Assembly (NCBI GenBank): GCA_964016885.1
Contig: OZ024744.1
Coordinates: 111,002,536 to 111,066,535, forward strand
From: Eledone cirrhosa
Taxonomy: Eukaryota; Mollusca; Cephalopoda; Octopoda; Eledonidae
Direction: 5' to 3'
Length of the DNA: 64,000 nt
The position numbers and the translations under genes are program-made. Below the pieces are notes generated by a model. The model did not search any database. It was not told where the DNA came from and saw nothing but the letters and a program-made list of their open reading frames with translations. The stretch's first letter is position 1; every line of letters starts with the position of its first letter. Positions 1-64,000 of this stretch are shown here, in pieces.

Positions 1-6
1 GAACAC

Positions 7-202: not shown

Positions 203-210
203 TATAAATT
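203..210 (+). other. TATA-box-like word in AATTACC monomers (example)
   Basis: The class with CACTATAAATTACC contains TATAAATT, close to the TATA-box consensus TATAWAAR; the majority form has the weaker TATAACTT. The class is frequent in all regions. In AT-rich repeats such words arise easily, and no initiation site is supported. Confidence 0.35.
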
Positions 211-2288: not shown

Positions 2289-2331
2289 CTGAACACAGTA
2301 AACTACACAATCCACTATAACTTACATTGCC
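2289..2331 (+). repeat. 43-bp length-variant monomer (AAAA to AAA)
   Basis: The A tract in CAGTAAAACTAC is shortened to CAGTAAACTAC, giving a 43-bp monomer. The form recurs in R1 (near 4853, 6481, 8638), R2 (near 12809, 14394, 15535, 17049, 17559, 19053) and R4, often followed by a TTACATTG monomer. A second 43-bp class reads TAAACTACAGGATCC or TAAACTACAGAATCC (near 10395, 12109, 21557, 26658) and introduces a GGATCC word. These copies shift all later monomers by one base, so block offsets are not always exact multiples of 44. Confidence 0.93.
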
Positions 2332-36359: not shown

Positions 36360-38442
36360 CTACACAATCCACTATACCTTACCTTGGCCTGAACACAGTA
36401 AAACTACACAATCCACTATAGCTTACATTGCTCTGAACACAGTAAAACTACACAATCCATTATAGCTTACCTTGCCCTGAAAACAGTGGAACTACACAAT
36501 CCACTATAAATTACCTTGCTCTGAACACAGTAAAACTACACAATCCACTATAACTTAACTTGCTCTGAACACAGTAAAACTACACAATCCACTATAACTT
36601 ACCTTGCTCTGAACACAGTAAAACTACACAATCCACTATAACTTACTTTGCCATGAACACAGTAAAACTACACAATCCACTATAACTTACCTTGCACTGA
36701 ACACAGTAAAACTACACAATCCACTATAGTTTACCTTGCCCTGAACACAGTAAAACTACACAATCCACAATAACGTACCTTGCCCTGAACACAGTAAAAC
36801 TACTTAATTCACTATAACTTACCTTGCTCTGAACACAGTAAAACTACACAATCCACTATACCTTACCTTGCCCTGAACACAGTAAAACTACACAATCCAC
36901 TAAAACTTACCTTGTTCTGAACACAGTAAAACTACACAATCCACTCTAACTTACCTTGCCCGGAACAAAGTAAAACTACGTAATCCACTATACCTTACCT
37001 TGCCCTGAACACAATGAAACTACACAATCCACTATAACTTACCTTGCTCTGAACACAGTAAAACTACACAATCCACTATAAATTACCTTGCCCTGAACAC
37101 AGTAAAACTACACAATCCACTATTACTTACCTTGCCCTGAACACAGAATAACTACACAATCCACTATAACTTAACTGGCCCTGAACACAGTAAAACTACA
37201 CAATCCACTATTACTTACCTTGCTCTGAACACAGTAAAACTACACAATCCACTATTACTTACCTTGCTCTGAACACAGAAAAACTACACAATCCACTATA
37301 ACCTACTTTGCCATGAACACAGTAAAACTACACAATCCACTATTACTTACCTTGCTCTGAACACAGAAAAACTACACAATCCACTATAACTTACTTTGCC
37401 ATGAACACAGTAAAACTACACAATCCACTATAACTTAACTGGCCCTGAACACAGTAACACTACACAATCAACTATAACTTACCTTGCTCTGAACACAGTA
37501 AAACTACACAATGCACTATAACTTACTTTGCCATGAACACAGTAAAACTACACAATCCACTAAAACTTACCTTGCACTGAACACAGTAAAACTACACAAT
37601 CCACTATAAATTACCTTGTTCTGAACACAGTAAAACTACACAATCCACTCTAACTTACCTTGCCCGGAACAAAGTAAAACTACGTAATCCACTATACCTT
37701 ACCTTGCCCTGAACACAGTGAAACTACACAATCCACTATAACTTACCTTGCTCTGAACACAGTAAAACTACACAATCCACTATAACTTACTTTGCCATGA
37801 ACACAGTAAAACTACACAATCCACTATAACTTAACTGGCCCTGAACACAGTAACACTACACAATCAACTATAACTTACCTTGCTCTGAACACAGTAAAAC
37901 TACACAATGCACTATAACTTACTTTGCCATGAACACAGTAAAACTACACAATCCACTAAAACTTACCTTGCACTGAACACAGTAAAACTACACAATCCAC
38001 TATAAATTACCTTGTTCTGAACACAGTAAAACTACACAGTCCACTCTAACTTACCTTGCCCGGACCAAAGTAAAACTACGTAATCCACTATACCTTACCT
38101 TGCCCTGAACACAGTGAAACTACACAATCAACTATAACTTACCTTGCTCTGAACACAGTAAAACTACACAATCCACTATAACTTACTTTGCCATGAACAC
38201 AGTAAAACTACACAATCCACTATAACTTACCTTGCACTGAACACAGTAAAACTACACAATCCACTATAACTTACCTTGCACTGAACACAGTAAAACTACA
38301 CAATCCACTATAACTTAACTGGCCCTGAACACAGTAAAACTACACAATCCACTATAACTTAACTGGCCCTGAACACAGTAAAACTACAGAATCCACTATA
38401 ACTTACCTTGCCCAGAACAAAGTAAAACTACGTAATCCACTA
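36360..38442 (+). repeat. R5 unit, ancestral-type copy
   Basis: Begins with CTTGGCCTGAACAC, then TAGCTTACATTGCTC, ACAATCCATTATAGC and AAAACAGTGGAAC, then CTTAATTCAC, CCCGGAACAAAG, AGAATAACTAC, AATCAACT and AATGCACT monomers. The same order is found at 42,540-44,560, 46,680-48,740 and 51,650-53,270. It ends with CTACAGAATCC and CAGAACAAAG monomers near 38,400. Confidence 0.84.
37460..38260 (+). repeat. 396-bp (9-monomer) tandem duplication, locus 1
   Basis: The nine-monomer run with AATCAACT, AATGCACT, CACTAAAACTTACC, TTGTTCTG, CCACTCTAAC and CCCGGA occurs twice in a row; AATGCACT is at 37,511 and 37,907. The second repeat carries CCCGGACCAAAG instead of CCCGGAACAAAG and a second AATCAACT. 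The same pair is at 43,570-44,370, 47,750-48,550 and 56,530-57,330. Confidence 0.88.
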
Positions 38443-41310
38443 TACCTTACCATGCCCTGAACACAGTAAAACTACACAATCCACTATACCTTACCATGCC
38501 CTGAACACAGTAAAACTACACAATCCACTATAGCTTACCTTGCCCTGAACACAGAAAAACTAAACAATCCACTATAACTTACATTGCCCTGAACACAGTA
38601 AAACTACACAATCCACTATAAATTACCTTGCTCTGAACACAGTAAAATTACACAATCCACTATAACTTACCTTGCTCTGAACACAGTAAACCTACACAAT
38701 CCACTATAAATTACCTTGCCCTGAACACAGTAAAATTACACAATCCACTATAAGTTACCTTGCTCTGAACACAGTAAAACAACACAATCCACTATAACTT
38801 AACTGGCCCTGAACACAGTAAAACTACACAATCCACTATAACTTACCATGCGCTGAACACAGTAAAACTAAACAATCCACTATAACTTACATTGCCCTGA
38901 ACACAGTAAAATTACACAAACCACTATAAATTACCTTGCCCGGAACACAGTAAAACTACACAATCCACTATAAATTACCTTGCCCTGAACACAGTAAAAC
39001 TACACAATCCACTATAACTTACCTTGCCCTGGACACAGTAAAACTACACAATCCACTATAACTTACCTTGCTCTGAACACAGTAAAACTACACAATCCAC
39101 TATACCTTACCTTGGCCTGAACACAGTAAAACTACACAATCCACTATAGCTTACATTGCTCTGAACACAGTAAAACTACACAATCCATTATAGCTTACCT
39201 TGCCCTGAAAACAGTGGAACTACACAATCCACTATAAATTACCTTGCTCTGAACACAGTAAAACTACACAATCCACTATAACTTACCTTGCTCTGAACAC
39301 AGTAAAACTACACAATCCACTATAACTTACCTTGCTCTGAACACAGTAAAACTACACAATCCACTATAACTTACTTTGTCATGAACACAGTAAAACTACA
39401 CAATCCACTATAACTTACCTTGCACTGAACACAGTAAAACTACACAATCCACTATAGTTTACCTTGCCCTGAACACAGTAAAACTACACAATCCACAATA
39501 ACGTACCTTGCCCTGAACACAGTAAAACTACTTAATTCACTATAACTTACCTTGCTCTGAACACAGTAAAACTACACAATCCACTATACCTTACCTTGCC
39601 CTGAACACAGTAAAACTACACAATCCACTATAGCTTACATTGCTCTGAACACAGTAAAACTACACAATCCACTATAAATTACCTTGCCCTGAACACAGTA
39701 AAACTACACAATCCACTATTACTTACCTTGCCCTGAACACAGAATAACTACACAATCCACTATAACTTAACTGGCCCTGAACACAGTAAAACTACACAAT
39801 CCACTATTACTTACCTTGCTCTGAACACAGTAAAACTACACAATCCACTATTACTTACCTTGCTCTGAACACAGAAAAACTACACAATCCACTATAACTT
39901 AATTTGCCATGAACACAGTAAAACTACACAATCCACTATTACTTACCTTGCTCTGAACATAGAAAAACTACACAATCCACTATAACTTACTTTGCCATGA
40001 ACACAGTAAAACTACACAATCCACTATAACTTAACTGGCCCTGAACACAGTGACACTACACAATCAACTATAACTTACCTTGCTCTGAACACAGTAAAAC
40101 TACACAATGCACTATAACTTACTTTGCCATGAACACAGTAAAACTACACAATCCACTAAAACTTACCTTGCACTGAACACAGTAAAACTACACAATCCAC
40201 TATAACAAACATTGCCCGGAACAAAGTAAAACTACGTAATCCACTATACCTTACCTTGCCCTGAACACAGTGAAACTACACAATCCACTATAACTTACCT
40301 TGCTCTGAACACAGTAAAACTACACAATCCACTATACCTTACCTTGCCCTGAACACAGTAAAACTACATAATCCACTATAGTTTACCTTGCCCTGAACAC
40401 AATAAAACTACACAATCCACTATAAATTACCTTGCTCTGAACACAATAAAACTACACAATCCACTATAACTTAACTGGCCCTGAACACAGTAAAACTACA
40501 CAATCCACTATAACTTACCTTGCCCTGAACACAGTAAAACTACACAATCCACTATAACAAACATTGCCCTGAACACGGTAAAACTACACAAACCACTATA
40601 AATTACCTTGCCCTGAACACAGTAAAACTACATAATCCACTATAGTTTACCTTGCCCTGAACACAATAAAACTACACAATCCACTATAACGTACCTTGCC
40701 CTGAACACAGTAAAACTACTTAATTCACTATAACTTACCTTGCTCTGAACACAGTAAAACTACACAATCCACTATACCTTACCTTGCCCTGCACACAGTA
40801 AAACTACACAATCCACTATAACTTACCTTGCCCTGAACACAGTAAAACTACACAATCCTCTATAACTTACCTTGCTGTGAACACAGTAAAACTACACAAT
40901 CCACTATGCCTTACCTTGCCCTGAACACAGTAAAACTACACAATCCTCTATAACTTACATTGCCCTGAACACAGTAAAACTACACAATCCACTATTACTT
41001 ACATTGCTCTGAACACAGAAAAACTACACAATCCACTATAACTTACTTTGCCATGAACAGAGTAAAACTACACAATCCACTACAACTTACCTTGCACTGA
41101 ACACAGTAAAACTACACAATCCACTATAAGTTACCTTCCTCTGAACACAGTAAAACTACACAATCCACTATAACTTAACTGGCCCTGAACACAGTAACAC
41201 TACACAATCCACTCTAACTTACCTTGCCCAGAACAAAGTATAACTACGTAATCCACTATACCTTACCTTGCCCTGAACACAGTCAAACTACACAATCCAC
41301 TATAGCTTAC
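38443..41310 (+). repeat. 2.8 kb block, source or copy of 53,270-56,093
   Basis: From TACCTTACCATG at 38,443 the order equals that from 53,270: offset 14,827, then 14,783 after one TTAACTGG monomer near 38,800 is absent from the distal copy. Shared rare changes include TTACCATGCGCTG, CCCTGGACACAG, TTTGTCATGAAC, AACATAGAAAAAC, CAGTGACACTAC and AACAGAGTAAAAC. Private to this copy is CCTGCACACAG near 40,791. Confidence 0.9.
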
Positions 41311-42060
41311 ATTGCTCTGAACACAGTAAAACTACACAATCCACTATAGCTTACCTTGCCCTGAACACAGTAAAACTACACAATCCACTATAGCTTACCT
41401 TGCCCTGAACACAGAAAAACTAAACAATCCACTATAACTTACATTGCCCTGAACACAGTAAAACTACACAATCCACTATAAATTACCTTGCTCTGAACAC
41501 AGTAAAATTACACAATCCACTATAACTTACTTTGCCATGAACACAGTAAAACTACACAATCCACTACAACTTACCTTGCACTGAACACAGTAAAACTACA
41601 CAATCCACTATAAATTACCTTCCTCTGAACACAGTAAAACTACACAATCCACTATAACTTAACTGGCCCTGAACACAGTAACACTACACAATCCACTCTA
41701 ACTTACCTTGCCCAGAACAAAGTATAACTACGTAATCCACTATACCTTACCTTGCCCTGAACACAGTCAAACTACACAATCCACTATAGCTTACATTGCT
41801 CTGAACACAGTAAAACTACACAATCCACTATAGCTTACCTTGCCCTGAACACAGTAAAACTACACAATCCACTATAGCTTACCTTGCCCTGAACACAGAA
41901 AAACTAAACAATCCACTATAACTTACATTGCCCTGAACACAGTAAAACTACACAATCCACTATAAATTACCTTGCTCTGAACACAGTAAAATTACACAAT
42001 CCACTATAACTTACCTTGCTCTGAACACAGTAAACCTACACAATCCACTATAAATTACCT
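41040..42060 (+). repeat. 484-bp (11-monomer) duplication, R5 locus
   Basis: CACTACAAC occurs at 41,078 and 41,562, offset 484. Each run holds TTACCTTCCTCTG (ATAAGTTACC in the first copy), CAGTAACACTAC, CCACTCTAAC, AAAGTATAACTACG, AGTCAAACTAC, two TAGCTTACC monomers and AAAAACTAAACAATCC. Confidence 0.87.
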
Positions 42061-42184
42061 TGCCCTGAACACAGTAAACTACACAATCCACTATAAGTTA
42101 CCTTGCTCTGAACACAGTAAAACAACACAATCCACTAAAACTTAACTGGCCCTGAACACAGTAAAACTACACAATCCACTATAC

Positions 42185-45100
42185 CTTACTTTGCTCTGAA
42201 CACAGTAGAACTACACAATCCACTATACCTTACCTTGGCCTGAACACAGTAAAACTACACAATCCACTATAACTTACCTTGCTCTGAACACAGTAAAACT
42301 ACACAATCCACTATAACTTACCTTGCTCTGAACACAGTAAAACTACACAATCCACTATAAATTACCTTGCTCTGAACACAGTAAAACTACACAATCCACT
42401 ATAACTTACCTTGCTCTGAACACAGTAAAACTACACAATCCACTATAACTTACTTTGCCATGAACACAGTAAAACTACACAATCCACTATAACTTACTTT
42501 GCCATGAACACAGTAAAACTACACAATCCACTATACCTTACCTTGGCCTGAACACAGTAAAACTACACAATCCACTATAGCTTACATTGCTCAGAACACA
42601 GTAAAACTACACAATCCATTATAGCTTACCTTGCCCTGAAAACAGTGGAACTACACAATCCACTATAAATTACCTTGCTCTGAACACAGTAAAACTACAC
42701 AATCCACTATAACTTAACTTGCTCTGAACACAGTAAAACTACACAATCCACTATAACTTACCTTGCTCTGAACACAGTAAAACTACACAATCCACTATAA
42801 CTTACTTTGCACTGAACACAGTAAAACTACACAATCCACTATAGTTTACCTTGCCCTGAACACAGTAAAACTACACAATCCACAATAACGTACCTTGCCC
42901 TGAACACAGTAAAACTACTTAAATCACTATAACTTACCTTGCTCTGAACACAGTAAAACTACACAATCCACTATACCTTACCTTGCCCTGAACACAGTAA
43001 AACTACACAATCCACTAAAACTTACCTTGTTCTGAACACAGTAAAACTACACAATCCACTCTAACTTACCTTGCCCGGAACAAAGTAAAACTACGTAATC
43101 CACTATACCTTACCTTGCCCTGAACACAATGAAACTACACAATCCACTATAACTTACCTTGCTCTGAACACAGTAAAACTACACAATCCACTATAAATTA
43201 CCTTGCCCTGAACACAGTAAAACTACACAATCCACTATTACTTACCTTGCCCTGAACACAGAATAACTACACAATCCACTATAACTTAACTGGCCCTGAA
43301 CACAGTAAAACTACACAATCCACTATTACTTACCTTGCTCTGAACACAGTAAAACTACACAATCCACTATTACTTACCTTGCTCTGAACACAGAAAAACT
43401 ACACAATCCACTATAACCTACTTTGCCATGAACACAGTAAAACTACACAATCCACTATTACTTACCTTGCTCTGAACACAGAAAAACTACACAATCCACT
43501 ATAACTTACTTTGCCATGAACACAGTAAAACTACACAATCCACTATAACTTAACTGGCCCTGAACACAGTAACACTACACAATCAACTATAACTTACCTT
43601 GCTCTGAACACAGTAAAACTACACAATGCACTATAACTTACTTTGCCATGAACACAGTAAAACTACACAATCCACTAAAACTTACCTTGCACTGAACACA
43701 GTAAAACTACACAATCCACTATAAATTACCTTGTTCTGAACACAGTAAAACTACACAATCCACTCTAACTTACCTTGCCCGGAACAAAGTAAAACTACGT
43801 AATCCACTATACCTTACCTTGCCCTGAACACAGTGAAACTACACAATCCACTATAACTTACCTTGCTCTGAACACAGTAAAACTACACAATCCACTATAA
43901 CTTACTTTGCCATGAACACAGTAAAACTACACAATCCACTATAACTTAACTGGCCCTGAACACAGTAACACTACACAATCAACTATAACTTACCTTGCTC
44001 TGAACACAGTAAAACTACACAATGCACTATAACTTACTTTGCCATGAACACAGTAAAACTACACAATCCACTAAAACTTACCTTGCACTGAACACAGTAA
44101 AACTACACAATCCACTATAAATTACCTTGTTCTGAACACAGTAAAACTACACAATCCACTCTAACTTACCTTGCCCGGACCAAAGTAAAACTACGTAATC
44201 CACTATACCTTACCTTGCCCTGAACACAGTGAAACTACACAATCAACTATAACTTACCTTGCTCTGAACACAGTAAAACTACACAATCCACTATAACTTA
44301 CTTTGCCATGAACACAGTAAAACTACACAATCCACTATAACTTACCTTGTACTGAACACAGTAAAACTACACAATCCACTATAACTTACCTTGCACTGAA
44401 CACAGTAAAACTACACAATCCACTATAACTTAACTGGCCCTGAACACAGTAAAACTACACAATCCACTATAACTTAACTGGCCCTGAACACAGTAAAACT
44501 ACAGAATCCACTATAACTTACCTTGCCCAGAACAAAGTAAAACTACGTAATCCACTATACCTTACCATGCCCTGAACACAGTAAAACTACACAATCCACT
44601 ATACCTTACCATGCCCTGAACACAGTAAAACTACACAATCCACTATAACTTACCTTGCCCTGAACACAGTAAAACTACACAATCCTCTATAACTTACCTT
44701 GCTGTGAACACAGTAAAACTACACAATCCACTATGCCTTACCTTGCCCTGAACACAGTAAAACTACACAATCCTCTATAACTTACATTGCCCTGAACACA
44801 GTAAAACTACACAATCCACTATTACTTACATTGCTCTGAACACAGAAAAACTACACAATCCACTATAACTTACTTTGCCATGAACAGAGTAAAACTACAC
44901 AATCCACTAAAACTTACCTTGCACTGAACACAGTAAAACTACACAATCCACTATAAATTACCTTGTTCTGAACACAGTAAAACTACACAATCCACTCTAA
45001 CTTACCTTGCCCGGACCAAAGTAAAACTACGTAATCCACTATACCTTACCTTGCCCTGAACACAGTGAAACTACACAATCAACTATAACTTACCTTGCTC

Positions 45101-46320
45101 TGAACACAGTAAAACTACACAATCCACTATAACTTACTTTGCCATGAACACAGTAAAACTACACAATCCACTATAACTTACCTTGTACTGAACACAGTAA
45201 AACTACACAATCCACTATAACTTACCTTGCACTGAACACAGTAAAACTACACAATCCACTATAACTTAACTGGCCCTGAACACAGTAAAACTACACAATC
45301 CACTATAACTTAACTGGCCCTGAACACAGTAAAACTACAGAATCCACTATAACTTACCTTGCCCAGAACAAAGTAAAACTACGTAATCCACTATACCTTA
45401 CCATGCCCTGAACACAGTAAAACTACACAATCCACTATACCTTACCATGCCCTGAACACAGTAAAACTACACAATCCACTATAACTTACCTTGCCCTGAA
45501 CACAGTAAAACTACACAATCCTCTATAACTTACCTTGCTGTGAACACAGTAAAACTACACAATCCACTATGCCTTACCTTGCCCTGAACACAGTAAAACT
45601 ACACAATCCTCTATAACTTACATTGCCCTGAACACAGTAAAACTACACAATCCACTATTACTTACATTGCTCTGAACACAGAAAAACTACACAATCCACT
45701 ATAACTTAACTGGCCCTGAACACAGTAACACTACACAATCCACTCTAACTTACCTTGCCCAGAACAAAGTATAACTACGTAATCCACTATACCTTACCTT
45801 GCCCTGAACACAGTCAAACTACACAATCCACTATAGCTTACATTGCTCTGAACACAGTAAAACTACACAATCCACTATAGCTTACCTTGCCCTGAACACA
45901 GTAAAACTACACAATCCACTATAGCTTACCTTGCCCTGAACACAGAAAAACTAAACAATCCACTATAACTTACATTGCCCTGAACACAGTAAAACTACAC
46001 AATCCACTATAAATTACCTTGCTCTGAACACAGTAAAATTACACAATCCACTATAACTTACTTTGCCATGAACACAGTAAAACTACACAATCCACTACAA
46101 CTTACCTTGCACTGAACACAGTAAAACTACACAATCCACTATAAATTACCTTCCTCTGAACACAGTAAAACTACACAATCCACTATAACTTAACTGGCCC
46201 TGAACACAGTAACACTACACAATCCACTCTAACTTACCTTGCCCAGAACAAAGTATAACTACGTAATCCACTATACCTTACCTTGCCCTGAACACAGTCA
46301 AACTACACAATCCACTATAC
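42185..46320 (+). repeat. R5 higher-order repeat, copy 1
   Basis: Starts at TTACTTTGCTCTGAACACAG with AGTAGAAC; TTGCTCTGAA is at 42,191, 46,327 and 51,299. Length 4,136 bp, 94 x 44. It carries the 396-bp pair (43,570-44,370) and the 836-bp pair (about 44,040-45,710), and ends with one copy of the 11-monomer run (CACTACAAC at 46,093). Relative to copy 2 it lacks one monomer near 42,808. Private change: CTTAAATCAC at 42,918. Confidence 0.9.
44040..45710 (+). repeat. 836-bp (19-monomer) tandem duplication, copy 1 of the R5 unit
   Basis: CCGGACCAAAG lies at 44,175 and 45,011, offset 836, exactly 19 monomers. Between them sit CTTGTACTG, two TTAACTGG, CTACAGAATCC, two TTACCATGCCC, two AATCCTCTATAAC and CAGAAAAAC monomers. 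The junction monomer near 44,885 is a hybrid, AACAGAGT on its left and CACTAAAAC on its right. Confidence 0.88.
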
Positions 46321-49300
46321 CTTACTTTGCTCTGAACACAGTAGAACTACACAATCCACTATACCTTACCTTGGCCTGAACACAGTAAAACTACACAATC
46401 CACTATAACTTACCTTGCTCTGAACACAGTAAAACTACACAATCCACTATAACTTACCTTGCTCTGAACACAGTAAAACTACACAATCCACTATAAATTA
46501 CCTTGCTCTGAACACAGTAAAACTACACAATCCACTATAACTTACCTTGCTCTGAACACAGTAAAACTACACAATCCACTATAACTTACTTTGCCATGAA
46601 CACAGTAAAACTACACAATCCACTATAACTTACTTTGCCATGAACACAGTAAAACTACACAATCCACTATACCTTACCTTGGCCTGAACACAGTAAAACT
46701 ACACAATCCACTATAGCTTACATTGCTCAGAACACAGTAAAACTACACAATCCATTATAGCTTACCTTGCCCTGAAAACAGTGGAACTACACAATCCACT
46801 ATAAATTACCTTGCTCTGAACACAGTAAAACTACACAATCCACTATAACTTAACTTGCTCTGAACACAGTAAAACTACACAATCCACTATAACTTACCTT
46901 GCTCTGAACACAGTAAAACTACACAATCCACTATAACTTACTTTGCCATGAACACAGTAAAACTACACAATCCACTATAACTTACCTTGCACTGAACACA
47001 GTAAAACTACACAATCCACTATAGTTTACCTTGCCCTGAACACAGTAAAACTACACAATCCACAATAACGTACCTTGCCCTGAACACAGTAAAACTACTT
47101 AATTCACTATAACTTACCTTGCTCTGAACACAGTAAAACTACACAATCCACTATACCTTACCTTGCCCTGAACACAGTAAAACTACACAATCCACTAAAA
47201 CTTACCTTGTTCTGAACACAGTAAAACTACACAATCCACTCTAACTTACCTTGCCCGGAACAAAGTAAAACTACGTAATCCACTATACCTTACCTTGCCC
47301 TGAACACAATGAAACTACACAATCCACTATAACTTACCTTGCTCTGAACACAGTAAAACTACACAATCCACTATAAATTACCTTGCCCTGAACACAGTAA
47401 AACTACACAATCCACTATTACTTACCTTGCCCTGAACACAGAATAACTACACAATCCACTATAACTTAACTGGCCCTGAACACAGTAAAACTACACAATC
47501 CACTATTACTTACCTTGCTCTGAACACAGTAAAACTACACAATCCACTATTACTTACCTTGCTCTGAACACAGAAAAACTACACAATCCACTATAACCTA
47601 CTTTGCCATGAACACAGTAAAACTACACAATCCACTATTACTTACCTTGCTCTGAACACAGAAAAACTACACAATCCACTATAACTTACTTTGCCATGAA
47701 CACAGTAAAACTACACAATCCACTATAACTTAACTGGCCCTGAACACAGTAACACTACACAATCAACTATAACTTACCTTGCTCTGAACACAGTAAAACT
47801 ACACAATGCACTATAACTTACTTTGCCATGAACACAGTAAAACTACACAATCCACTAAAACTTACCTTGCACTGAACACAGTAAAACTACACAATCCACT
47901 ATAAATTACCTTGTTCTGAACACAGTAAAACTACACAATCCACTCTAACTTACCTTGCCCGGAACAAAGTAAAACTACGTAATCCACTATACCTTACCTT
48001 GCCCTGAACTCAGTGAAACTACACAATCCACTATAACTTACCTTGCTCTGAACACAGTAAAACTACACAATCCACTATAACTTACTTTGCCATGAACACA
48101 GTAAAACTACACAATCCACTATAACTTAACTGGCCCTGAACACAGTAACACTACACAATCAACTATAACTTACCTTGCTCTGAACACAGTAAAACTACAC
48201 AATGCACTATAACTTACTTTGCCATGAACACAGTAAAACTACACAATCCACTAAAACTTACCTTGCACTGAACACAGTAAAACTACACAATCCACTATAA
48301 ATTACCTTGTTCTGAACACAGTAAAACTACACAATCCACTCTAACTTACCTTGCCCGGACCAAAGTAAAACTACGTAATCCACTATACCTTACCTTGCCC
48401 TGAACACAGTGAAACTACACAATCAACTATAACTTACCTTGCTCTGAACACAGTAAAACTACACAATCCACTATAACTTACTTTGCCATGAACACAGTAA
48501 AACTACACAATCCACTATAACTTACCTTGTACTGAACACAGTAAAACTACACAATCCACTATAACTTACCTTGCACTGAACACAGTAAAACTACACAATC
48601 CACTATAACTTAACTGGCCCTGAACACAGTAAAACTACACAATCCACTATAACTTAACTGGCCCTGAACACAGTAAAACTACAGAATCCACTATAACTTA
48701 CCTTGCCCAGAACAAAGTAAAACTACGTAATCCACTATACCTTACCATGCCCTGAACACAGTAAAACTACACAATCCACTATACCTTACCATGCCCTGAA
48801 CACAGTAAAACTACACAATCCACTATAACTTACCTTGCCCTGAACACAGTAAAACTACACAATCCTCTATAACTTACCTTGCTGTGAACACAGTAAAACT
48901 ACACAATCCACTATGCCTTACCTTGCCCTGAACACAGTAAAACTACACAATCCTCTATAACTTACATTGCCCTGAACACAGTAAAACTACACAATCCACT
49001 ATTACTTACATTGCTCTGAACACAGAAAAACTACACAATCCACTATAACTTACTTTGCCATGAACAGAGTAAAACTACACAATCCACTAAAACTTACCTT
49101 GCACTGAACACAGTAAAACTACACAATCCACTATAAATTACCTTGTTCTGAACACAGTAAAACTACACAATCCACTCTAACTTACCTTGCCCGGACCAAA
49201 GTAAAACTACGTAATCCACTATACCTTACCTTGCCCTGAACACAGTGAAACTACACAATCAACTATAACTTACCTTGCTCTGAACACAGTAAAACTACAC

Positions 49301-51292
49301 AATCCACTATAACTTACTTTGCCATGAACACAGTAAAACTACACAATCCACTATAACTTACCTTGTACTGAACACAGTAAAACTACACAATCCACTATAA
49401 CTTACCTTGCACTGAACACAGTAAAACTACACAATCCACTATAACTTAACTGGCCCTGAACACAGTAAAACTACACAATCCACTATAACTTAACTGGCCC
49501 TGAACACAGTAAAACTACAGAATCCACTATAACTTACCTTGCCCAGAACAAAGTAAAACTACGTAATCGACTATACCTTACCATGCCCTGAACACAGTAA
49601 AACTACACAATCCACTATACCTTACCATGCCCTGAACACAGTAAAACTACACAATCCACTATAACTTACCTTGCCCTGAACACAGTAAAACTACACAATC
49701 CTCTATAACTTACCTTGCTGTGAACACAGTAAAACTACACAATCCACTATGCCTTACCTTGCCCTGAACACAGTAAAACTACACAATCCTCTATAACTTA
49801 CATTGCCCTGAACACAGTAAAACTACACAATCCACTATTACTTACATTGCTCTGAACACAGAAAAACTACACAATCCACTATAACTTACTTTGCCATGAA
49901 CAGAGTAAAACTACACAATCCACTACAACTTACCTTGCACTGAACACAGTAAAACTACACAATCCACTATAAATTACCTTCCTCTGAACACAGTAAAACT
50001 ACACAATCCACTATAACTTAACTGGCCCTGAACACAGTAACACTACACAATCCACTCTAACTTACCTTGCCCAGAACAAAGTATAACTACGTAATCCACT
50101 ATACCTTACCTTGCCCTGAACACAGTCAAACTACACAATCCACTATAGCTTACATTGCTCTGAACACAGTAAAACTACACAATCCACTATAGCTTACCTT
50201 GCCCTGAACACAGTAAAACTACACAATCCACTATAGCTTACCTTGCCCTGAACACAGAAAAACTAAACAATCCACTATAACTTACATTGCCCTGAACACA
50301 GTAAAACTACACAATCCACTATAAATTACCTTGCTCTGAACACAGTAAAATTACACAATCCACTATAACTTACTTTGCCATGAACACAGTAAAACTACAC
50401 AATCCACTACAACTTACCTTGCACTGAACACAGTAAAACTACACAATCCACTATAAATTACCTTCCTCTGAACACAGTAAAACTACACAATCCACTATAA
50501 CTTAACTGGCCCTGAACACAGTAACACTACACAATCCACTCTAACTTACCTTGCCCAGAACAAAGTATAACTACGTAATCCACTATACCTTACCTTGCCC
50601 TGAACACAGTCAAACTACACAATCCACTATAGCTTACATTGCTCTGAACACAGTAAAACTACACAATCCACTATAGCTTACCTTGCCCTGAACACAGTAA
50701 AACTACACAATCCACTATAGCTTACCTTGCCCTGAACACAGAAAAACTAAACAATCCACTATAACTTACATTGCCCTGAACACAGTAAAACTACACAATC
50801 CACTATAAATTACCTTGCTCTGAACACAGTAAAATTACACAATCCACTATAACTTACCTTGCTCTGAACACAGTAAAATTACACAATCCACTATAACTTA
50901 CTTTGCCATGAACACAGTAAAACTACACGATCCACTACAACTTACCTTGCACTGAACACAGTAAAACTACACAATCCACTATAAATTACCTTCCTCTGAA
51001 CACAGTAAAACTACACAATCCACTATAACTTAACTGGCCCTGAACACAGTAACACTACACAATCCACTCTAACTTACCTTGCCCAGAACAAAGTATAACT
51101 ACGTAATCCACTATACCTTACCTTGCCCTGAACACAGTCAAACTACACAATCCACTATAGCTTACATTGCTCTGAACACAGTAAAACTACACAATCCACT
51201 ATAGCTTACCTTGCCCTGAACACAGTAAAACTACACAATCCACTATAGCTTACCTTGCCCTGAACACAGTAAAACTACACAATCCACTATAC
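46321..51292 (+). repeat. R5 higher-order repeat, copy 2
   Basis: Length 4,972 bp, 113 x 44. It matches copy 1 (offset 4,136, then 4,180 after the extra monomer near 46,950) through the 396-bp pair (47,750-48,550) and the 836-bp pair (CCGGACCAAAG at 48,355 and 49,191). It then has three tandem 11- or 12-monomer runs (CACTACAAC at 49,921, 50,405 and 50,933) where copy 1 has one. Private changes: GAACTCAGTG near 48,007 and TAATCGACT near 49,565. Confidence 0.9.
49880..51280 (+). repeat. Triple 484/528-bp run in R5 copy 2
   Basis: The CACTACAAC landmark at 49,921, 50,405 and 50,933 shows an 11-monomer step followed by a 12-monomer step. The 12th monomer is an extra TTGCTCTGAACACAG copy with AAAATTACAC near 50,865. 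The third run starts with a private CACGATCCACTACAAC. Confidence 0.87.
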
Positions 51293-53269
51293 CTTACTTT
51301 GCTCTGAACACAGTAGAACTACACAATCCACTATACCTTACCTTGGCCTGAACACAGTAAAACTACACAATCCACTATAACTTACCTTGCTCTGAACACA
51401 GTAAAACTACACAATCCACTATAACTTACCTTGCTCTGAACACAGTAAAACTACACAATCCACTATAAATTACCTTGCTCTGAACACAGTAAAACTACAC
51501 AATCCACTATAACTTACCTTGCTCTGAACACAGTAAAACTACACAATCCACTATAACTTACTTTGCCATGAACACAGTAAAACTACACAATCCACTATAA
51601 CTTACTTTGCCATGAACACAGTAAAACTACACAATCCACTATACCTTACCTTGGCCTGAACACAGTAAAACTACACAATCCACTATAGCTTACATTGCTC
51701 TGAACACAGTAAAACTACACAATCCATTATAGCTTACCTTGCCCTGAAAACAGTGGAACTACACAATCCACTATAAATTACCTTGCTCTGAACACAGTAA
51801 AACTACACAATCCACTATAACTTAACTTGCTCTGAACACAGTAAAACTACACAATCCACTATAACTTACCTTGCTCTGAACACAGTAAAACTACACAATC
51901 CACTATAACTTACTTTGCCATGAACACAGTAAAACTACACAATCCACTATAACTTACCTTGCACTGAACACAGTAAAACTACACAATCCACTATAGTTTA
52001 CCTTGCCCTGAACACAGTAAAACTACACAATCCACAATAACGTACCTTGCCCTGAACACAGTAAAACTACTTAATTCACTATAACTTACCTTGCTCTGAA
52101 CACAGTAAAACTACACAATCCACTATACCTTACCTTGCCCTGAACACAGTAAAACTACACAATCCACTAAAACTTACCTTGTTCTGAACACAGTAAAACT
52201 ACACAATCCACTCTAACTTACCTTGCCCGGAACAAAGTAAAACTACGTAATCCACTATACCTTACCTTGCCCTGAACACAATGAAACTACACAATCCACT
52301 ATAACTTACCTTGCTCTGAACACAGTAAAACTACACAATCCACTATAAATTACCTTGCCCTGAACACAGTAAAACTACACAATCCACTATTACTTACCTT
52401 GCCCTGAACACAGAATAACTACACAATCCACTATAACTTAACTGGCCCTGAACACAGTAAAACTACACAATCCACTATTACTTACCTTGCTCTGAACACA
52501 GTAAAACTACACAATCCACTATTACTTACCTTGCTCTGAACACAGAAAAACTACACAATCCACTGTAACCTACTTTGCCATGAACACAGTAAAACTACAC
52601 AATCCACTATTACTTACCTTGCTCTGAACACAGAAAAACTACACAATCCACTATAACTTACTTTGCCATGAACACAGTAAAACTACACAATCCACTATAA
52701 CTTAACTGGCCCTGAACACAGTAACACTACACAATCAACTATAACTTACCTTGCTCTGAACACAGTAAAACTACACAATGCACTATAACTTACTTTGCCA
52801 TGAACACAGTAAAACTACACAATCCACTAAAACTTACCTTGCACTGAACACAGTAAAACTACACAATCCACTATAAATTACCTTGTTCTGAACACAGTAA
52901 AACTACACAATCCACTCTAACTTACCTTGCCCGGAACAAAGTAAAACTACGTAATCCACTATACCTTACCTTGCCCTGAACACAGTGAAACTACACAATC
53001 CACTATAACTTACCTTGCTCTGAACACAGTAAAACTACACAATCCACTATAACTTACTTTGCCATGAACACAGTAAAACTACACAATCCACTATAACTTA
53101 CCTTGTACTGAACACAGTAAAACTACACAATCCACTATAACTTACCTTGCACTGAACACAGTAAAACTACACAATCCACTATAACTTAACTGGCCCTGAA
53201 CACAGTAAAACTACACAATCCACTATAACTTAACTGGCCCTGAACACAGTAAAACTACAGAATCCACTA
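51293..53269 (+). repeat. R5 higher-order repeat, partial copy 3
   Basis: Colinear with copy 2 at offset 4,972 (CTTAATTCAC at 47,098 and 52,070). Near 53,000 the second 396-bp repeat is missing, so the AATGCACT run appears only once. Near 53,260 the CAGAACAAAG monomer is also lost before the order switches to the 38,443 block. Private change: CACTGTAACC near 52,563. Confidence 0.87.
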
Positions 53270-56093
53270 TACCTTACCATGCCCTGAACACAGTAAAACT
53301 ACACAATCCACTATACCTTACCATGCCCTGAACACAGTAAAACTACACAATCCACTATAGCTTACCTTGCCCTGAACACAGAAAAACTAAACAATCCACT
53401 ATAACTTACATTGCCCTGAACACAGTAAAACTACACAATCCACTATAAATTACCTTGCTCTGAACACAGTAAAATTACACAATCCACTATAACTTACCTT
53501 GCTCTGAACACAGTAAACCTACACAATCCACTATAAATTACCTTGCCCTGAACACAGTAAAATTACACAATCCACTATAAGTTACCTTGCTCTGAACACA
53601 GTAAAACAACACAATCCACTATAACTTACCATGCGCTGAACACAGTAAAACTAAACAATCCACTATAACTTACATTGCCCTGAACACAGTAAAATTACAC
53701 AAACCACTATAAATTACCTTGCCCGGAACACAGTAAAACTACACAATCCACTATAAATTACCTTGCCCTGAACACAGTAAAACTACACAATCCACTATAA
53801 CTTACCTTGCCCTGGACACAGTAAAACTACACAATCCACTATAACTTACCTTGCTCTGAACACAGTAAAACTACACAATCCACTATACCTTACCTTGGCC
53901 TGAACACAGTAAAACTACACAATCCACTATAGCTTACATTGCTCTGAACACAGTAAAACTACACAATCCATTATAGCTTACCTTGCCCTGAAAACAGTGG
54001 AACTACACAATCCACTATAAATTACCTTGCTCTGAACACAGTAAAACTACACAATCCACTATAACTTACCTTGCTCTGAACACGGTAAAACTACACAATC
54101 CACTATAACTTACCTTGCTCTGAACACAGTAAAACTACACAATCCACTATAACTTACTTTGTCATGAACACAGTAAAACTACACAATCCACTATAACTTA
54201 CCTTGCACTGAACACAGTAAAACTACACAATCCACTATAGTTTACCTTGCCCTGAACACAGTAAAACTACACAATCCACAATAACGTACCTTGCCCTGAA
54301 CACAGTAAAACTACTTAATTCACTATAACTTACCTTGCTCTGAACACAGTAAAACTACACAATCCACTATACCTTACCTTGCCCTGAACACAGTAAAACT
54401 ACACAATCCACTATAGCTTACATTGCTCTGAACACAGTAAAACTACACAATCCACTATAAATTACCTTGCCCTGAACACAGTAAAACTACACAATCCACT
54501 ATTACTTACCTTGCCCTGAACACAGAATAACTACACAATCCACTATAACTTAACTGGCCCTGAACACAGTAAAACTACACAATCCACTATTACTTACCTT
54601 GCTCTGAACACAGTAAAACTACACAATCCACTATTACTTACCTTGCTCTGAACACAGAAAAACTACACAATCCACTATAACTTAATTTGCCATGAACACA
54701 GTAAAACTACACAATCCACTATTACTTACCTTGCTCTGAACATAGAAAAACTACACAATCCACTATAACTTACTTTGCCATGAACACAGTAAAACTACAC
54801 AATCCACTATAACTTAACTGGCCCTGAACACAGTGACACTACACAATCAACTATAACTTACCTTGCTCTGAACACAGTAAAACTACACAATGCACTATAA
54901 CTTACTTTGCCATGAACACAGTAAAACTACACAATCCACTAAAACTTACCTTGCACTGAACACAGTAAAACTACACAATCCACTATAACAAACATTGCCC
55001 GGAACAAAGTAAAACTACGTAATCCACTATACCTTACCTTGCCCTGAACACAGTGAAACTAAACAATCCACTATAACTTACCTTGCTCTGAACACAGTAA
55101 AACTACACAATCCACTATACCTTACCTTGCCCTGAACACAGTAAAACTACATAATCCACTATAGTTTACCTTGCCCTGAACACAATAAAACTACACAATC
55201 CACTATAAATTACCTTGCTCTGAACACAATAAAACTACAGAATCCACTATAACTTAACTGGCCCTGAACACAGTAAAACTACACAATCCACTATAACTTA
55301 CCTTGCCCTGAACACAGTAAAACTACACAATCCACTATAACAAACATTGCCCTGAACACGGTAAAACTACACAAACCACTATAAATTACCTTGCCCTGAA
55401 CACAGTAAAACTACATAATCCACTATAGTTTACCTTGCCCTGAACACAATAAAACTACACAATCCACTATAACGTACCTTGCCCTGAACACAGTAAAACT
55501 ACTTAATTCACTATAACTTACCTTGCTCTGAACACAGTAAAACTACACAATCCACTATACCTTACCTTGCCCTGAACACAGTAAAACTACACAATCCACT
55601 ATAACTTACCTTGCCCTGAACACAGTAAAACTACACAATCCTCTATAACTTACCTTGCTGTGAACACAGTAAAACTACACAATCCACTATGCCTTACCTT
55701 GCCCTGAACACAGTAAAACTACACAATCCTCTATAACTTACATTGCCCTGAACACAGTAAAACTACACAATCCACTATTACTTACATTGCTCTGAACACA
55801 GAAAAACTACACAATCCACTATAACTTACTTTGCCATGAACAGAGTAAAACTACACAATCCACTACAACTTACCTTGCACTGAACACAGTAAAACTACAC
55901 AATCCACTATAAATTACCTTCCTCTGAACACAGTAAAACTACACAATCCACTATAACTTAACTGGCCCTGAACACAGTAACACTACACAATCCACTCTAA
56001 CTTACCTTGCCCAGAACAAAGTATAACTACGTAATCCACTATACCTTACCTTGCCCTGAACACAGTCAAACTACACAATCCACTATAGCTTAC
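53270..56093 (+). repeat. 2.8 kb block, partner of 38,443-41,310
   Basis: Colinear with the proximal block at offset 14,827, then 14,783. Private changes are CACGGTAAAAC near 54,081, GTGAAACTAAACAATCC near 55,055 and AAACTACAGAATCC near 55,237. The order leaves the proximal block at 56,094, where TATAGCTTACC joins an AACACAATGAAAC monomer. Confidence 0.88.
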
Positions 56094-57405
56094 CTTGCCC
56101 TGAACACAATGAAACTACACAATCCACTATAACTTACCTTGCTCTGAACACAGTAAAACTACACAATCCACTATAAATTACCTTGCCCTGAACACAGTAA
56201 AACTACACAATCCACTATTACTTACCTTGCCCTGAACACAGAATAACTACACAATCCACTATAACTTAACTGGCCCTGAACACAGTAAAACTACACAATC
56301 CACTATTACTTACCTTGCTCTGAACACAGTAAAACTACACAATCCACTATTACTTACCTTGCTCTGAACACAGAAAAACTACACAATCCACTATAACCTA
56401 CTTTGCCATGAACACAGTAAAACTACACAATCCACTATTACTTACCTTGCTCTGAACACAGAAAAACTACACAATCCACTATAACTTACTTTGCCATGAA
56501 CACAGTAAAACTACACAATCCACTATAACTTAACTGGCCCTGAACACAGTAACACTACACAATCAACTATAACTTACCTTGCTCTGAACACAGTAAAACT
56601 ACACAATGCACTATAACTTACTTTGCCATGAACACAGTAAAACTACACAATCCACTAAAACTTACCTTGCACTGAACACAGTAAAACTACACAATCCACT
56701 ATAAATTACCTTGTTCTGAACACAGTAAAACTACACAATCCACTCTAACTTACCTTGCCCGGAACAAAGTAAAACTACGTAATCCACTATACCTTACCTT
56801 GCCCTGAACACAGTGAAACTACACAATCCACTATAACTTACCTTGCTCTGAACACAGTAAAACTACACAATCCACTATAACTTACTTTGCCATGAACACA
56901 GTAAAACTACACAATCCACTATAACTTAACTGGCCCTGAACACAGTAACACTACACAATCAACTATAACTTACCTTGCTCTGAACACAGTAAAACTACAC
57001 AATGCACTATAACTTACTTTGCCATGAACACAGTAAAACTACACAATCCACTAAAACTTACCTTGCACTGAACACAGTAAAACTACACAATCCACTATAA
57101 ATTACCTTGTTCTGAACACAGTAAAACTACACAATCCACTCTAACTTACCTTGCCCGGACCAAAGTAAAACTACGTAATCCACTATACCTTACCTTGCCC
57201 TGAACACAGTGAAACTACACAATCAACTATAACTTACCTTGCTCTGAACACAGTAAAACTACACAATCCACTATAACTTACTTTGCCATGAACACAGTAA
57301 AACTACACAATCCACTATAACTTACCTTGTACTGAACACAGTAAAACTACACAATCCACTATAACTTACCTTGCACTGAACACAGTAAAACTACACAATC
57401 CACTA
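56094..57405 (+). repeat. R5 fragment with the 396-bp pair
   Basis: AACACAATGAAAC at about 56,103 matches 47,303 (offset 8,800, 200 x 44) and 43,123. The 396-bp pair follows with AATGCACT at 56,606 and 57,002. Matching continues past CTTGTACTG to the junction at about 57,405. Confidence 0.87.
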
Positions 57406-57553
57406 TTACTTACATTGCTCTGAACACAGAAAAACTACACAATCCACTATAACTTACTTTGCCATGAACACAGTAAAACTACACAATCCACTACAACTTA
57501 CCTTGCACTGAACACAGTAAAACTACACAATCCACTATAAATTACCTTCCTCT
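57406..57553 (+). repeat. Junction from R5 back to the R1 block
   Basis: Up to 57,405 the order follows 48,571-48,610. At 57,406 the expected CTATAAC becomes CTATTAC, and from there the sequence follows 6,149-6,296, the tail of the R1 unit (TTACATTGCTCTG, CAGAAAAAC, CACTACAAC, TTACCTTCCTCTG). The switch lies inside one monomer and keeps register. Confidence 0.88.
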
Positions 57554-60500
57554 GAACACAATAAAACTACACAATCCACTATAACTTAACTGGCCCTGAA
57601 CACAGTAAAACTACACAATCCACTATAACTTAACTGGCCCTGAACACAGTAAAACTACACAATCCACTATAAGTTACCTTGCTCTGAACACAGTAAAACT
57701 ACACAATCCACTATAACTTACCTTGCCCTGAACACAGTAAAACTACACAAACCACTATAAATTACCTTGTTCTGAACACAGTAAAACTACACAATCCACT
57801 ATACCTTACCTTGCCCTGAACACAGTAAAACTACACAATCCACTATAGCTTACATTGCTCTGAACACAGTAAAACTACACAATCCACTATAAATTACCTT
57901 GCTCTGAACACAGCAAAACTACACAATCCACTATAACTTACTTTGCCATGAACACAGTAAAACTACACAATCCACTATAACTTACCTTGCACTGAACACA
58001 GTAAAACTACACAATCCACTATAACTTAACTGGCCCTGAACACAGTAACACTACACAATCAACTATAACTTACCTTGCTCTGAACACAGTAAAACTACAC
58101 AATGCACTATAACTTACTTTGCCATGAACACAGTAAAACTACACAATCCACTATAACTTACCTTGCACTGAACACAGTAAAACTACACAATCCACTATAA
58201 ATTACCTTGTTCTGAACACAGAAAAACTACACAATCCACTCTAACTTACCTTGCCCAGAACAAAATAAAACTACGTAATCCACTATACCTTACCTTGCCC
58301 TGAACACAGTGAAACTACACAATCCACTATAACTTACCTTGCTCTGAACACAGTAAAACTACACAATCCACTATACCTTACCTTGCCCTGAACACAGTAA
58401 AACTACATAATCCACTATAGTTTACCTTGCCCTGAACACAATAAAACTACACAATCCACTATAAATTACCTTGCCCTGAAAACAGTAGAACTACACAATC
58501 CACTATAAATTACCTTGCTCTGAACACAATAAAACTACACAATCCACTATAACTTAACTGGCCCTGAACACAGTAAAACTACACAATCCACTATAACTTA
58601 CCTTGCCCTGAACACAGTAAAACTACACAATCCACTATAACAAACATTGCCCTGAACACGGTAAAACTACACAAACCACTATCAATTACCTTGCCCTGAA
58701 CACAGTAAAACTACATAATCCACTATAGTTTACCTTGCCCTGAACACAATAAAACTACACAATCCACTATAAATTACCTTGCCCTGAACACAGTAAAACT
58801 ACACAATCCTCTATAACTTACCTTGCTGTGAACACAGTAAAACTACACAATCCACTATGCCTTACCTTGCCATGAACACAGTAAAACTACACAATCCACT
58901 ATTACTTACATTGCTCTGAACACAGAAAAACTACACAATCCACTATAACTTACCTTGCACTGAACACAGTAAAACTACACAATCCACTATAACTTACCTT
59001 GCCCTGAACACAGTAAAACTACACAATCCACTATAACTTAACTGGCCCTGAACACAGTAAAACTACACAATCCACTATAACTTACCTTGCCCTGAACACA
59101 GTAAAACTACACAATCCAAACTATAACAAACATTGCCCTGAACACGGTAAAACTACACAAACCACTATAAATTACCTTGCCCTGAACACAGTAAAACTAC
59201 ATAATCCACTATAGTTTACCTTGCCCTGAACACAATAAAACTACACGATCCACTTTAAATTACCTTGCCCTGAACACAGTAAAACTACACAATCCACTAT
59301 AACGTACCTTGCCCTGAACACAGTAAAACTACTTAATTCACTATAACTTACCTTGCTCTGAACACAGTAAAACTACACAATCCACTATACCTTACCTTGC
59401 CCTGAACACAGTGAAACTACACAATCCACTATAACTTACCTTGCCCTGAACACAGTAAAACTACACAATCCTCTATAACTTACCTTGCTGTGAACACAGT
59501 AAAACTACACAATCCACTATGCCTTACCTTGCCCTGAACACAGTAAAACTACACAATCCACTATTACTTACATTGCTCTGAACACAGAAAAACTACACAA
59601 TCCACTATAACTTACTTTGCCATGAACACAGTAAAACTACACAATCCACTACAACTTACCTTGCACTGAACACAGTAAAACTACACAATCCACTATAAAT
59701 TACCTTCCTCTGAACACAATAAAACTACACAATCCACTATAACTTAACTGGCCCTGAACACAGTAAAACTACACAATCCACTATAACTTAACTGGCCCTG
59801 AACACAGTAAAACTACACAATCCACTATAACTTACCTTGCCCTGAACACAGTAAACTACACAATCCACTATAACTTACATTGCCCTGAACACAGTAAAAC
59901 TACACAAACCACTATAAATTACCTTGTTCTGAACACAGTAAAACTACACAATCCACTATACCTTACCTTGCCCTGAACACAGTAAAACTACACAATCCAC
60001 TATAACTTACTTTGCCCTGAACACATTAAAACTACACAAACCACTATAAATTACCTTGCTCTAAACACAGTAAAACTTTATAATCCACTATAACTTAACT
60101 GGCCCTGAACACAGTAAAACTACACAATCCACTATAACTTAACAGGCCCTGAACACAGTAAAACTACACAATCCACTATAACTTAACTGGCCCTGAACAC
60201 AGTAAAACTACACAATCCACTATAACTTACCTTGCCTTGAACACAGTAAAACTACACAATCCACTATAACTTACATTGCCCTGAACACAGTAAAACTACA
60301 CAATCCACTATAACTTACCTTGCTCTGAACACAGTAAAACTACACAAACCACTATAACTTAACAGTCCCTGAACACAGTAAAACTACACAATCCACTATA
60401 ACTTAACTGACCCTGAACACAGTAAAACTACACAATCCACTATAACTTAACTGGCCCTGAACACAGTAAAACTACACAATCCACTATAACTTACCTTGCT

Positions 60501-63500
60501 CTGAACACAGTAAAACTACACAATCCACTATAACTTACCTTGCCCTGAACACAGTAAAACTACACAATCCTCTATAACTTACCTTGCTGTGAACACAGTA
60601 AAACTACACAATCCACTATGCCTTACCTTGCCCTGAACACAGTAAAACTACACAATCCACTATTACTTACATTGCTCTGAACACAGAAAAACTACACAAT
60701 CCACTATAACTTACTTTGCCATGAACACAGTAAAACTACACAATCCACTACAACTTACCTTGCACTGAACACAGTAAAACTACACAATCCACTATAAATT
60801 ACCTTCCTCTGAACACAATAAAACTACACAATCCACTATAACTTAACTGGCCCTGAACACAGTAAAACTACACAATCCACTATAACTTAACTGGCCCTGA
60901 ACACAGTAAAACTACACAATCCACTATAAGTTACCTTGCTCTGAACACAGTAAAACTACACAATCCACTATAACTTACCTTGCCCTGAACACAGTAAGCT
61001 ACACAATCCACTATAACTTAACTGGCCCTGAACACAGTAAAACTACACAATCCACTATAACAAACATTGCCCTGAACACGGTAAAACTACACAAACCACT
61101 ATAGTTTACCTTGCCCTGAACACAATAAAACTACACAATCCACTATAAATTACCTTGCCCTGAACACAGTAAAACTACACAATCCACTATAAATTACCTT
61201 GCCCTGAACACAGTAAAACTACATAATCCACTATAGTTTACCTTGCCCTGAACACAATAAAACTACACAATCCACTATAAATTACCTTGCCCTGAACACA
61301 GTAAAACTACACAATCCACTATAAATTACCTTGCCCTGAACACAGTAAAACTACACAATCCACTATGCCTTACCTTGCCCTGAACACAGTAAAACTACAC
61401 AATCCACTATTACTTACATTGCTCTGAACACTGAAAAACTACACAATCCACTATAACTTACTTTGCCATGAACACAGTAAAACTACACAATCCTCTATAA
61501 CTTACCTTGCTGTGAACACAGTAAAACTACACAATCCACTATGCCTTACCTTGCCCTGAACACAGTAAAACTCCACAATCCACTATAACTTACCTTGCCC
61601 TGAACACAGTAAAACTACACAATCCAAACTATAACAAACATTGCCCTGAACACGGTAAAACTACACAAACCACTATAAATTACCTTGCCCTGAACACAGT
61701 AAAACTACATAATCCACTATAGTTTACCTTGCCCTGAACACAATAAAACTACACAATCCACTTTAAATTACCTTGCCCTGAACACAGTAAAACTACACAA
61801 TCCACTATAACGTACCTTGCCCTGAACACAGTAAAACTACTTAATTCACTATAACTTACCTTGCTCTGAACACAGTAAAACTACACAATCCACTATACCT
61901 TACCTTGCCCTGAACACAGTGAAACTACACAATCCACTATAACTTACCTTGCCCTGAACACAGTAAAACTACACAATCCTCTATAACTTACCTTGCTGTG
62001 AACACAGTAAAACTACACAATCCACTATGCCTTACCTTGCCCTGAACACAGTAGAACTACACAATCCACTATTACTTACATTGCTCTGAACACAGAAAAA
62101 CTACACAATCCACTATAACTTACTTTGCCATGAACACAGTAAAGCTACACAATCCACTACAACTTACCTTGCACTGAACACAGTAAAACTACACAATCCA
62201 CTATAAATTACCTTCCTCTGAACACAATAAAACTACACAATCCACTATAACTTAACTGGCCCTGAACACAGTAAAACTACACAATCCACTATAACTTAAC
62301 TGGCCCTGAACACAGTAAAACTACACAATCCACTATAAGTTACCTTGCTCTGAACACAGTAAAACTACACAATCCACTATAACTTACCTTGCCCTGAACA
62401 CAGTAAACTACACAATCCACTATAACTTACATTGCCCTGAACACAGTAAAACTACACAAACCACTATAAATTACCTTGTTCTGAACACAGTAAAACTACA
62501 CAATCCACTATACCTTACCTTGCCCTGAACACAGTAAAACTACACAATCCACTATAGCTTACATTGCTCTGAACACAGTAAAACTACACAATCCACCATA
62601 AATTACCTTGCTCTGAACACAGCAAAACTACACAATCCACTATAACTTACTTTGCCATGAACACAGTAAAACTACACAATCCACTATAACTTACCTTGCA
62701 CTGAACACAGTAAAACTACACAATCCACTATAACTTAACTGGCCCTGAACACAATAACACTACACAATCCACTATAACAAACATTGCCCTGAACACGGTA
62801 AAACTACACAAACCACTATCAATTACCTTGCCCTGAACACAGTAAAACTACATAATCCACTATAGTTTACCTTGCCCTGAACACAATAAAACTACACAAT
62901 CCACTATAAATTACCTTGCCCTGAAGACAGTAAAACTACACAATCCACTATAACTTACCTTGCTGTGAACACAGTAAAACTACACAATCCACTATGCCTT
63001 ACCTTGCCCTGAACACAGTAAAACTACACAATCCATTATTACTTACATTGCTCTGAACACAGAAAAACTACACAATCCACTATAACTTACTTTGCCATGA
63101 ACACAGTAAAAATAACACAATCCTCTATAACTTACCTTGCTGTGAACACAGTAAAACTACACAATCCACTATGCCTTACCTTGCCCTGAACACAGTAAAA
63201 CTCCACAATCCACTATAACTTACCTTGCCCTGAACACAGTAAAACTACACAATCCAAACTATAACAAACATTGCCCTGAACACGGTAAAACTACACAAAC
63301 CACTATAAATTACCTTGCCTTGAACACAGTAAAACTACATAATCCACTATAGTTTACCTTGCCCTGAACACAATAAAACTACACGATCCACTTTAAATTA
63401 CCTTGCCCTGAACACAGTAAAACTACACAATCCACTATAACGTACCTTGCCCTGAACACAGTAAAACTACTTAATTCACTATAACTTACCTTGCTCTGAA

Positions 63501-63849
63501 CACAGTAAAACTACACAATCCACTATACCTTACCTTGCCTTGAACACAGTGAAACTACACAATCCACTATAACTTACCTTGCCCTGAACACAGTAAAACT
63601 ACACAATCCTCTATAACTTACCTTGCTGTGAACACAGTAAAACTACACAATCCACTATGCCTTACATTGCCCTGAACACAGTAAAACTACACAATCCACT
63701 ATTACTTACATTGCTCTGAACACAGAAAAACTACACAATCCACTATAACTTACTTTGCCATGAACACAGTAAAACTACACAATCCACTACAACTTACCTT
63801 GCACTGAACACAGTAAAACTACACAATCCACTATAAATTACCTTCCTCT
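57554..63849 (+). repeat. R1 higher-order repeat, distal copy
   Basis: Equals 1-6,296 at a constant offset of 57,553 with no indel found. Every rare private variant I checked in copy 1 is present here. Examples are CAGCAAAAC, AATCAACT, AACACTGAAAAAC, AACTCCACAATCC, AGTAAGCTACAC, AATCCACCATAAA, GAAGACAG and AATCCATTATTAC. The single difference I found is T at 63,540 where copy 1 has C at 5,987. Confidence 0.93.
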
Positions 63850-64000
63850 GAACACAATAAAACTACACAATCCACTATAACTTAACTGGCCCTGAACACA
63901 GTAAAACTACACAATCCACTATAACTTAACTGGCCCTGAACACAGTAACACTACACAATCCACTATAAGTTACCTTGCTCTGAACACAGTAAAACTACAC
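63850..64000 (+). repeat. Start of a further R1 unit, cut by the window end
   Basis: Matches 6,297-6,447, including the CAGTAACACTAC monomer that separates the 6,297 copy from copy 1. The order of copy 1 then partial copy 2 is therefore reproduced here, so the duplicated segment extends past the window end. Confidence 0.9.

Follow-up and report, generated by a model that had tools for sequence, protein, structure and literature searches.

A probable, recent tandem duplication of 57 kb in a 44-bp satellite array of Eledone cirrhosa

Results

We analyzed a stretch of 64,000 nucleotides (hereafter the window) from the cephalopod Eledone cirrhosa (NCBI GenBank assembly GCA_964016885.1, contig OZ024744.1, positions 111,002,536 to 111,066,535 of the forward strand), which is occupied by a 44-bp satellite, and found that a unit of 57.2-57.6 kb of this satellite is present as two adjacent direct copies. 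The tandem duplication is very probably real, by whatever route it arose, and judging from the sequence alone its best reading is a single, very recent duplication through unequal exchange or template switching. The sequence read comprised the window and 100 kb on each side (264 kb, free of N), while about 0.75-0.8 Mb of the array lies outside it. Coordinates follow the numbering of the window, with 0 for the base immediately before position 1 and negative numbers further left.

Two copies of a 57-kb unit

Direct comparison of the two ends of the window, positions 1-6,447 and 57,554-64,000 (both on the + strand), gave one mismatch (C at 5,987, T at 63,540) and zero indels, exactly as the preliminary description of this DNA had reported. 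The T is private to the second member of the pair: within its 29-bp context, C is found at 27 places of the window, including 5,987, and T solely at 63,540. Among the 231 near-identical ungapped pairs that reach 300 bp in the window, this pair ranks first in length, the runner-up measuring 2,902 bp, and it also scores best among 14 gapped monomer alignments of the window, with 145 aligned monomers, 144 of them identical, and no gap. One of these alignments, within the D-type domain defined below (36,699-48,005 against 42,814-52,977), takes in more monomers than the pair (193 aligned, 180 identical, 7 gaps). Chance does not account for the pair: at a lag of 1,309 monomers, up to 135 monomers in a row are identical, whereas in 20 shuffles of the monomer order the longest runs were of 2-4. 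Since a single base is all that separates the members of the pair, the repeats they contain are common to both and would be older than the duplication.

The match fills the entire overlap possible at its offset, and therefore 6,447 bp is a length limited by the window; a duplication of 57 kb can pass for one of 6.4 kb when viewed through a fixed window. When both sides were extended, the ungapped match at offset 57,553 covered -177 to 15,688, where it has a single mismatch, and went on at offsets 57,597, 57,595 and 57,199, with small indels, until it reached 57,404. Copy 1 thus spans -177 to 57,404 and copy 2 spans 57,376 to 114,603, of which 1-57,404 and 57,376-64,000, respectively, are visible in the window, both on the + strand. 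Beyond -177 on the left and 114,603 on the right, the identity at the offsets of the unit drops to background, so that the arrangement consists of two adjacent direct copies with sharp ends, that is, a tandem segmental duplication.

It had been stated that the sequence between the two window ends is differently organized. This is true within the window, but positions 6,448-57,553 are repeated to its right; an extension on both sides had been proposed as a check, by 60 kb, and the one made here by 100 kb did find them there. The very recent large duplication suggested on that occasion is supported as the best reading, the copies aligning end to end.

The junction and its homology

According to shared four-monomer words, the window splits into neighborhoods: an A type, found at 0-10 kb and back again after 57.4 kb, a D type, and other stretches between them. 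In 2-kb bins, the D-type domain (36,001-57,404) has almost no four-monomer words in common with 0-36 kb, and it ends abruptly at the junction of the two copies. Some sharing between A and D types is detected with exact 150-mers, for example 430 between the 8-kb bins starting at 4,001 and 36,001, as compared with 5,198 common to the bins at 36,001 and 44,001.

The junction lies at 57,376-57,404, with D-type sequence on its left and A-type sequence on its right, and these 29 bp are identical to -177 to -149 and to 114,575-114,603. Up to 57,404 the sequence agrees with the right parental site, and from 57,376 onward with the left one, so that 29 bp belong to both; the right end of the unit is therefore joined to its left end, forming a novel junction. 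The position of about 57,405 given for it earlier was correct within a few bases. Other D-type paralogues match through 57,406, so the homology may originally have extended over 31 bp. In the 1 kb just outside each end of the unit the parental neighborhoods are 88.6% and 89.9% alike, no higher than for random in-register A-D pairs (mean 90.2%, standard deviation 0.7, n = 60). A junction 151-mer has a single occurrence in the 264 kb, and its nearest other places differ by 4 mismatches in ungapped comparison.

A homology of 29 bp is ordinary for this array and nothing special, because the same stretch has 2,401 occurrences in the 264 kb; moreover, 26% of random in-register points lie in identical runs of at least 29 bp (20,000 draws, those landing on a mismatch being dropped).

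Differences between the copies

Differences were listed by piecewise alignment over the full unit. There are 32 single-nucleotide variants (SNVs) in total, 25 of them concentrated in one tract together with two 1-bp gaps, and 7 isolated (copy-1 positions 5,987, 18,512, 21,119, 29,795, 29,805, 46,035 and 49,569). The isolated SNVs amount to 7 per 56,924 bp, or 1.2e-4 per site (95% interval 0.5-2.5e-4). A fair range for the number of point changes is 5-7, because the SNV at 18,512 may belong to the replaced tract, and those at 29,795 and 29,805, which are 10 bp apart, may represent one small conversion.

Two differences involve whole monomers. At 15,604-15,689 one 44-bp monomer of copy 2 is missing from copy 1. 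Exact matches to the copy 2 arrangement, which includes the monomer, lie at 12,835, 70,388 and 76,189, and matches with a single mismatch at 17,581 and 75,178; for the arrangement lacking it, the closest match has at least 4 mismatches. As the former occurs at paralogous places, the monomer was probably lost in copy 1. The second indel comprises nine monomers, 396 bp present in copy 1 at 47,663-48,058 and absent from copy 2 at 105,258. Here the loss is assigned to copy 2, from which the 396 bp were probably deleted, because an 800-bp stretch of copy 1 spanning this site recurs six times elsewhere, each time with one mismatch.

The tract of about 276 bp at 18,556-18,831, which holds the 25 SNVs and the two 1-bp gaps, probably records a conversion-like, non-allelic event in which copy 2 would be the changed one. 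Its copy 2 version (76,153-76,426) is identical to sequence at 12,799, 70,352 and 73,077. In copy 1, left flank and tract correspond to a single paralogue without change of offset (exactly at 13,792; with one mismatch at 13,898), whereas the joins of copy 2 at the tract edges have no exact match anywhere, and the change is assigned to copy 2 for this reason. Thus the differences themselves are observed, and which copy changed is probable from the paralogues; changes that are private or polarized by paralogues fall on both copies.

Other duplications in the array

The 264 kb contain 88 ungapped pairs with a length of 1.5 kb or more, of which 60 were listed. Among the 84 that do not belong to the 57-kb duplication, six are tandem duplications of adjacent copies whose units measure 1,980-3,960 bp, so that the 57-kb unit exceeds the largest of those found by the ungapped search (3,960 bp) by a factor of about 14. 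The gapped alignment within the D-type domain mentioned above has a shift that goes from 139 to 113 monomers (about 5-6 kb), and compared with this one, which comes from the window only, the unit is about 9 times as large.

Two of the neighboring duplications appear young. In the right flank, from 149,785 to 160,628, there is an adjacent duplication with a unit of 3,960 bp in about 2.7 copies, with 4 mismatches over 6,884 bp. In the left flank, from -54,135 to -46,898, an adjacent 3,604-bp duplication shows zero mismatches over 3,634 bp, which makes its age similar to that of the 57-kb event, or lower.

Extent and composition of the satellite

Tandem Repeats Finder (TRF) reported a period of 44 with 1,455.4 copies in one row spanning 1-64,000; the window is thus filled by a long head-to-tail array of one monomer, a satellite DNA, and its 1,455 monomers are part of a larger array. 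We counted 6,003 monomers across the 264 kb. In the window the 44-bp monomers have a mean identity of 94.4% to their consensus, and random pairs of monomers differ by 9.8%. Judging from 29 spaced samples, in which the satellite was present in 6 of 20 and in 3 of 9, the left limit of the array lies between 110.15 and 110.20 Mb of the contig and the right limit between 111.21 and 111.22 Mb, giving an array of about 1.01-1.07 Mb if it is continuous between samples. The assembly as a whole comprises 2.98 Gb in 1,582 contigs.

The + strand of the window has a strong asymmetry, with 5,026 G and 18,809 C, and CpG is found 168 times where 1,477 would be expected; the monomer consensus has few G and zero CpG. 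The window contains no open reading frame of at least 100 amino acids (table 11) and no Rfam match at gathering score. A CENP-B-box pattern had no match in a scan of the + strand of the window, a result that does not decide whether the satellite is centromeric. One 31-base pattern had no exact match in viral contigs or genome contigs, and positions 1-3,000 of the window gave no blastn match to plasmids and phages. Six monomer words of 15-16 bases were not found in the literature text, where "44-bp satellite" and similar wording brought up only Chlamydia plasmids and barley.

Within the satellite, ARAGORN called four tRNA-Leu (3,373-3,467, 31,720-31,817, 54,016-54,113 and 60,926-61,020), the first and last of which are 57,553 bp apart and lie within the two members of the window-end pair. 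Given their location in the satellite and the lack of an Rfam match we do not retain them as genes; they are probably chance folds. Of 11 flanking samples analyzed with TRF, six from 106 to 116 Mb of the same contig (L021, L022, L025, L032, L038 and L040) are filled by other tandem repeats, with periods of 58, 15, 424, 12, 59 and 39, respectively; this region of the contig is therefore repeat-rich. One of the 29 spaced samples (L024) contains a tRNA-SINE-like sequence (short interspersed nuclear element) that would be of a kind known from octopus genomes.

Discussion

Origin of the duplication

We propose that two sites about 57.5 kb apart, lying in the 44-bp register and sharing 29 bp of identity, would have been joined, the product being left flank, unit, unit, right flank, an order shown by the three-way match at the breakpoints. 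The joining process may have been an unequal exchange between sister chromatids or homologues, or break-induced replication that restarted behind the fork. Later divergence would have added 5-7 point changes, the loss of one monomer in copy 1 and of nine in copy 2, and one conversion-like replacement of about 276 bp.

Several observations weigh against this explanation or limit how far it can be taken. The isolated SNVs could include consensus errors. The unit is far above the other adjacent duplications (2-4 kb ungapped; one of about 5-6 kb gapped), an untypical step for this array. Reciprocal exchange, break-induced replication and reintegration of a circle would be indistinguishable at the sequence level. 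In addition, pieces of the unit recur outside both copies: among sampled 150-mers this was the case for 648 of 1,043 from -177 to 10,400, for 87 of 906, 116 of 726, 123 of 886 and 548 of 1,186 in the next four stretches of the unit, and for 490 of 926 in the last one (48,000-57,404). Such recurrence is as expected of a satellite, and, among the matches listed, the ungapped ones that link the unit with sequence beyond it are up to about 2.5 kb long.

An assembly error is the main alternative to be considered, since the assembler might have laid two haplotypes, or one collapsed segment, in tandem. The near identity of the copies (1.2e-4 isolated differences per site) and their indels could be allelic, and 3 of 20 samples, located 0.43-0.93 Mb right of the window, are nearly all N, so the contig may not be gap-free. 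Nevertheless, we regard such a false duplication as unlikely: the 264 kb contain no N, the junction is in register, and its 29 bp of identity are followed by only about 89-90% similarity, thus offering no long overlap to drive a false join. Moreover, a read across the D-A junction would imply a molecule carrying it, unless the read were chimeric. The related idea, already raised in the preliminary description, that the same reads were placed twice fits the single base difference seen in the overlap of the window ends, but it is not supported over the full unit, where the 32 SNVs, the 44-bp and 396-bp indels and the replaced tract of about 276 bp distinguish the copies by more than random errors, with states supported by paralogues and private changes on both sides; as a pure artefact the duplication is scarcely credible.

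Only slightly less improbable is a super-repeat in which the array would have a higher-order period of about 57.5 kb with many copies. The period itself, seen in the window, holds through the whole unit, but there are two copies only in the 264 kb, with background identity at these offsets beyond -177 and 114,603, out of the 1.01-1.07 Mb or so that the array covers; in the part read, a unit repeated many times in tandem was not found. Finally, a 57-kb circle could have been excised via the 29-bp homology and reintegrated at the homologous site. From general knowledge of recombination, the same junction and two-copy structure would be expected, although two steps would be needed instead of one, and we grant this route a small part of the probability assigned to the duplication itself rather than a share in addition to it. 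The single-step duplication by unequal exchange or template switch is thus the explanation that we favor.

Significance and comparison with known systems

The 57-kb duplication offers a clean single step of array growth, in which the two breakpoints, the homology employed and the earliest subsequent changes can all be read, and it lets the rate of exchange and conversion be set against that of point mutation within one array. We tentatively suggest, as a possibility with the balance somewhat against it, that rare exchanges of tens of kilobases restructure the array alongside frequent ones of 2-4 kb, and that the two-copy unit acts as a natural clock, in which exchange plus conversion (3 events, about 716 bp) would be nearly as frequent as point mutation (5-7 events) and far broader in effect. 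The kind of event is already known, while a 57-kb duplication of this array was not found in the literature searched.

The unit resembles a higher-order repeat in that a block of distinct monomers is repeated together with high identity; it differs in having only two copies in the 264 kb, and it is not established as such. A model of satellite growth by unequal exchange was reportedly put forward by Smith in 1976. Unequal exchange and break-induced replication are both described as sources of satellite growth in a review (PMC8997354), and our case is alike in that an out-of-register exchange, or a restart behind the fork, yields a head-to-tail duplication. The difference is one of scale, the step here being about 1,300 monomers as against 2-4 kb for the other adjacent duplications in the sequence read (ungapped). 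Internal duplications of hundreds of kilobases are described for human DXZ1 alpha-satellite arrays in a review (PMC9859433), and in both systems the duplications lie within a satellite array; however, the human case concerns alpha satellite, of about 171 bp, and variation between individuals, whereas the duplication in E. cirrhosa is seen in a 44-bp satellite and in one assembly only.

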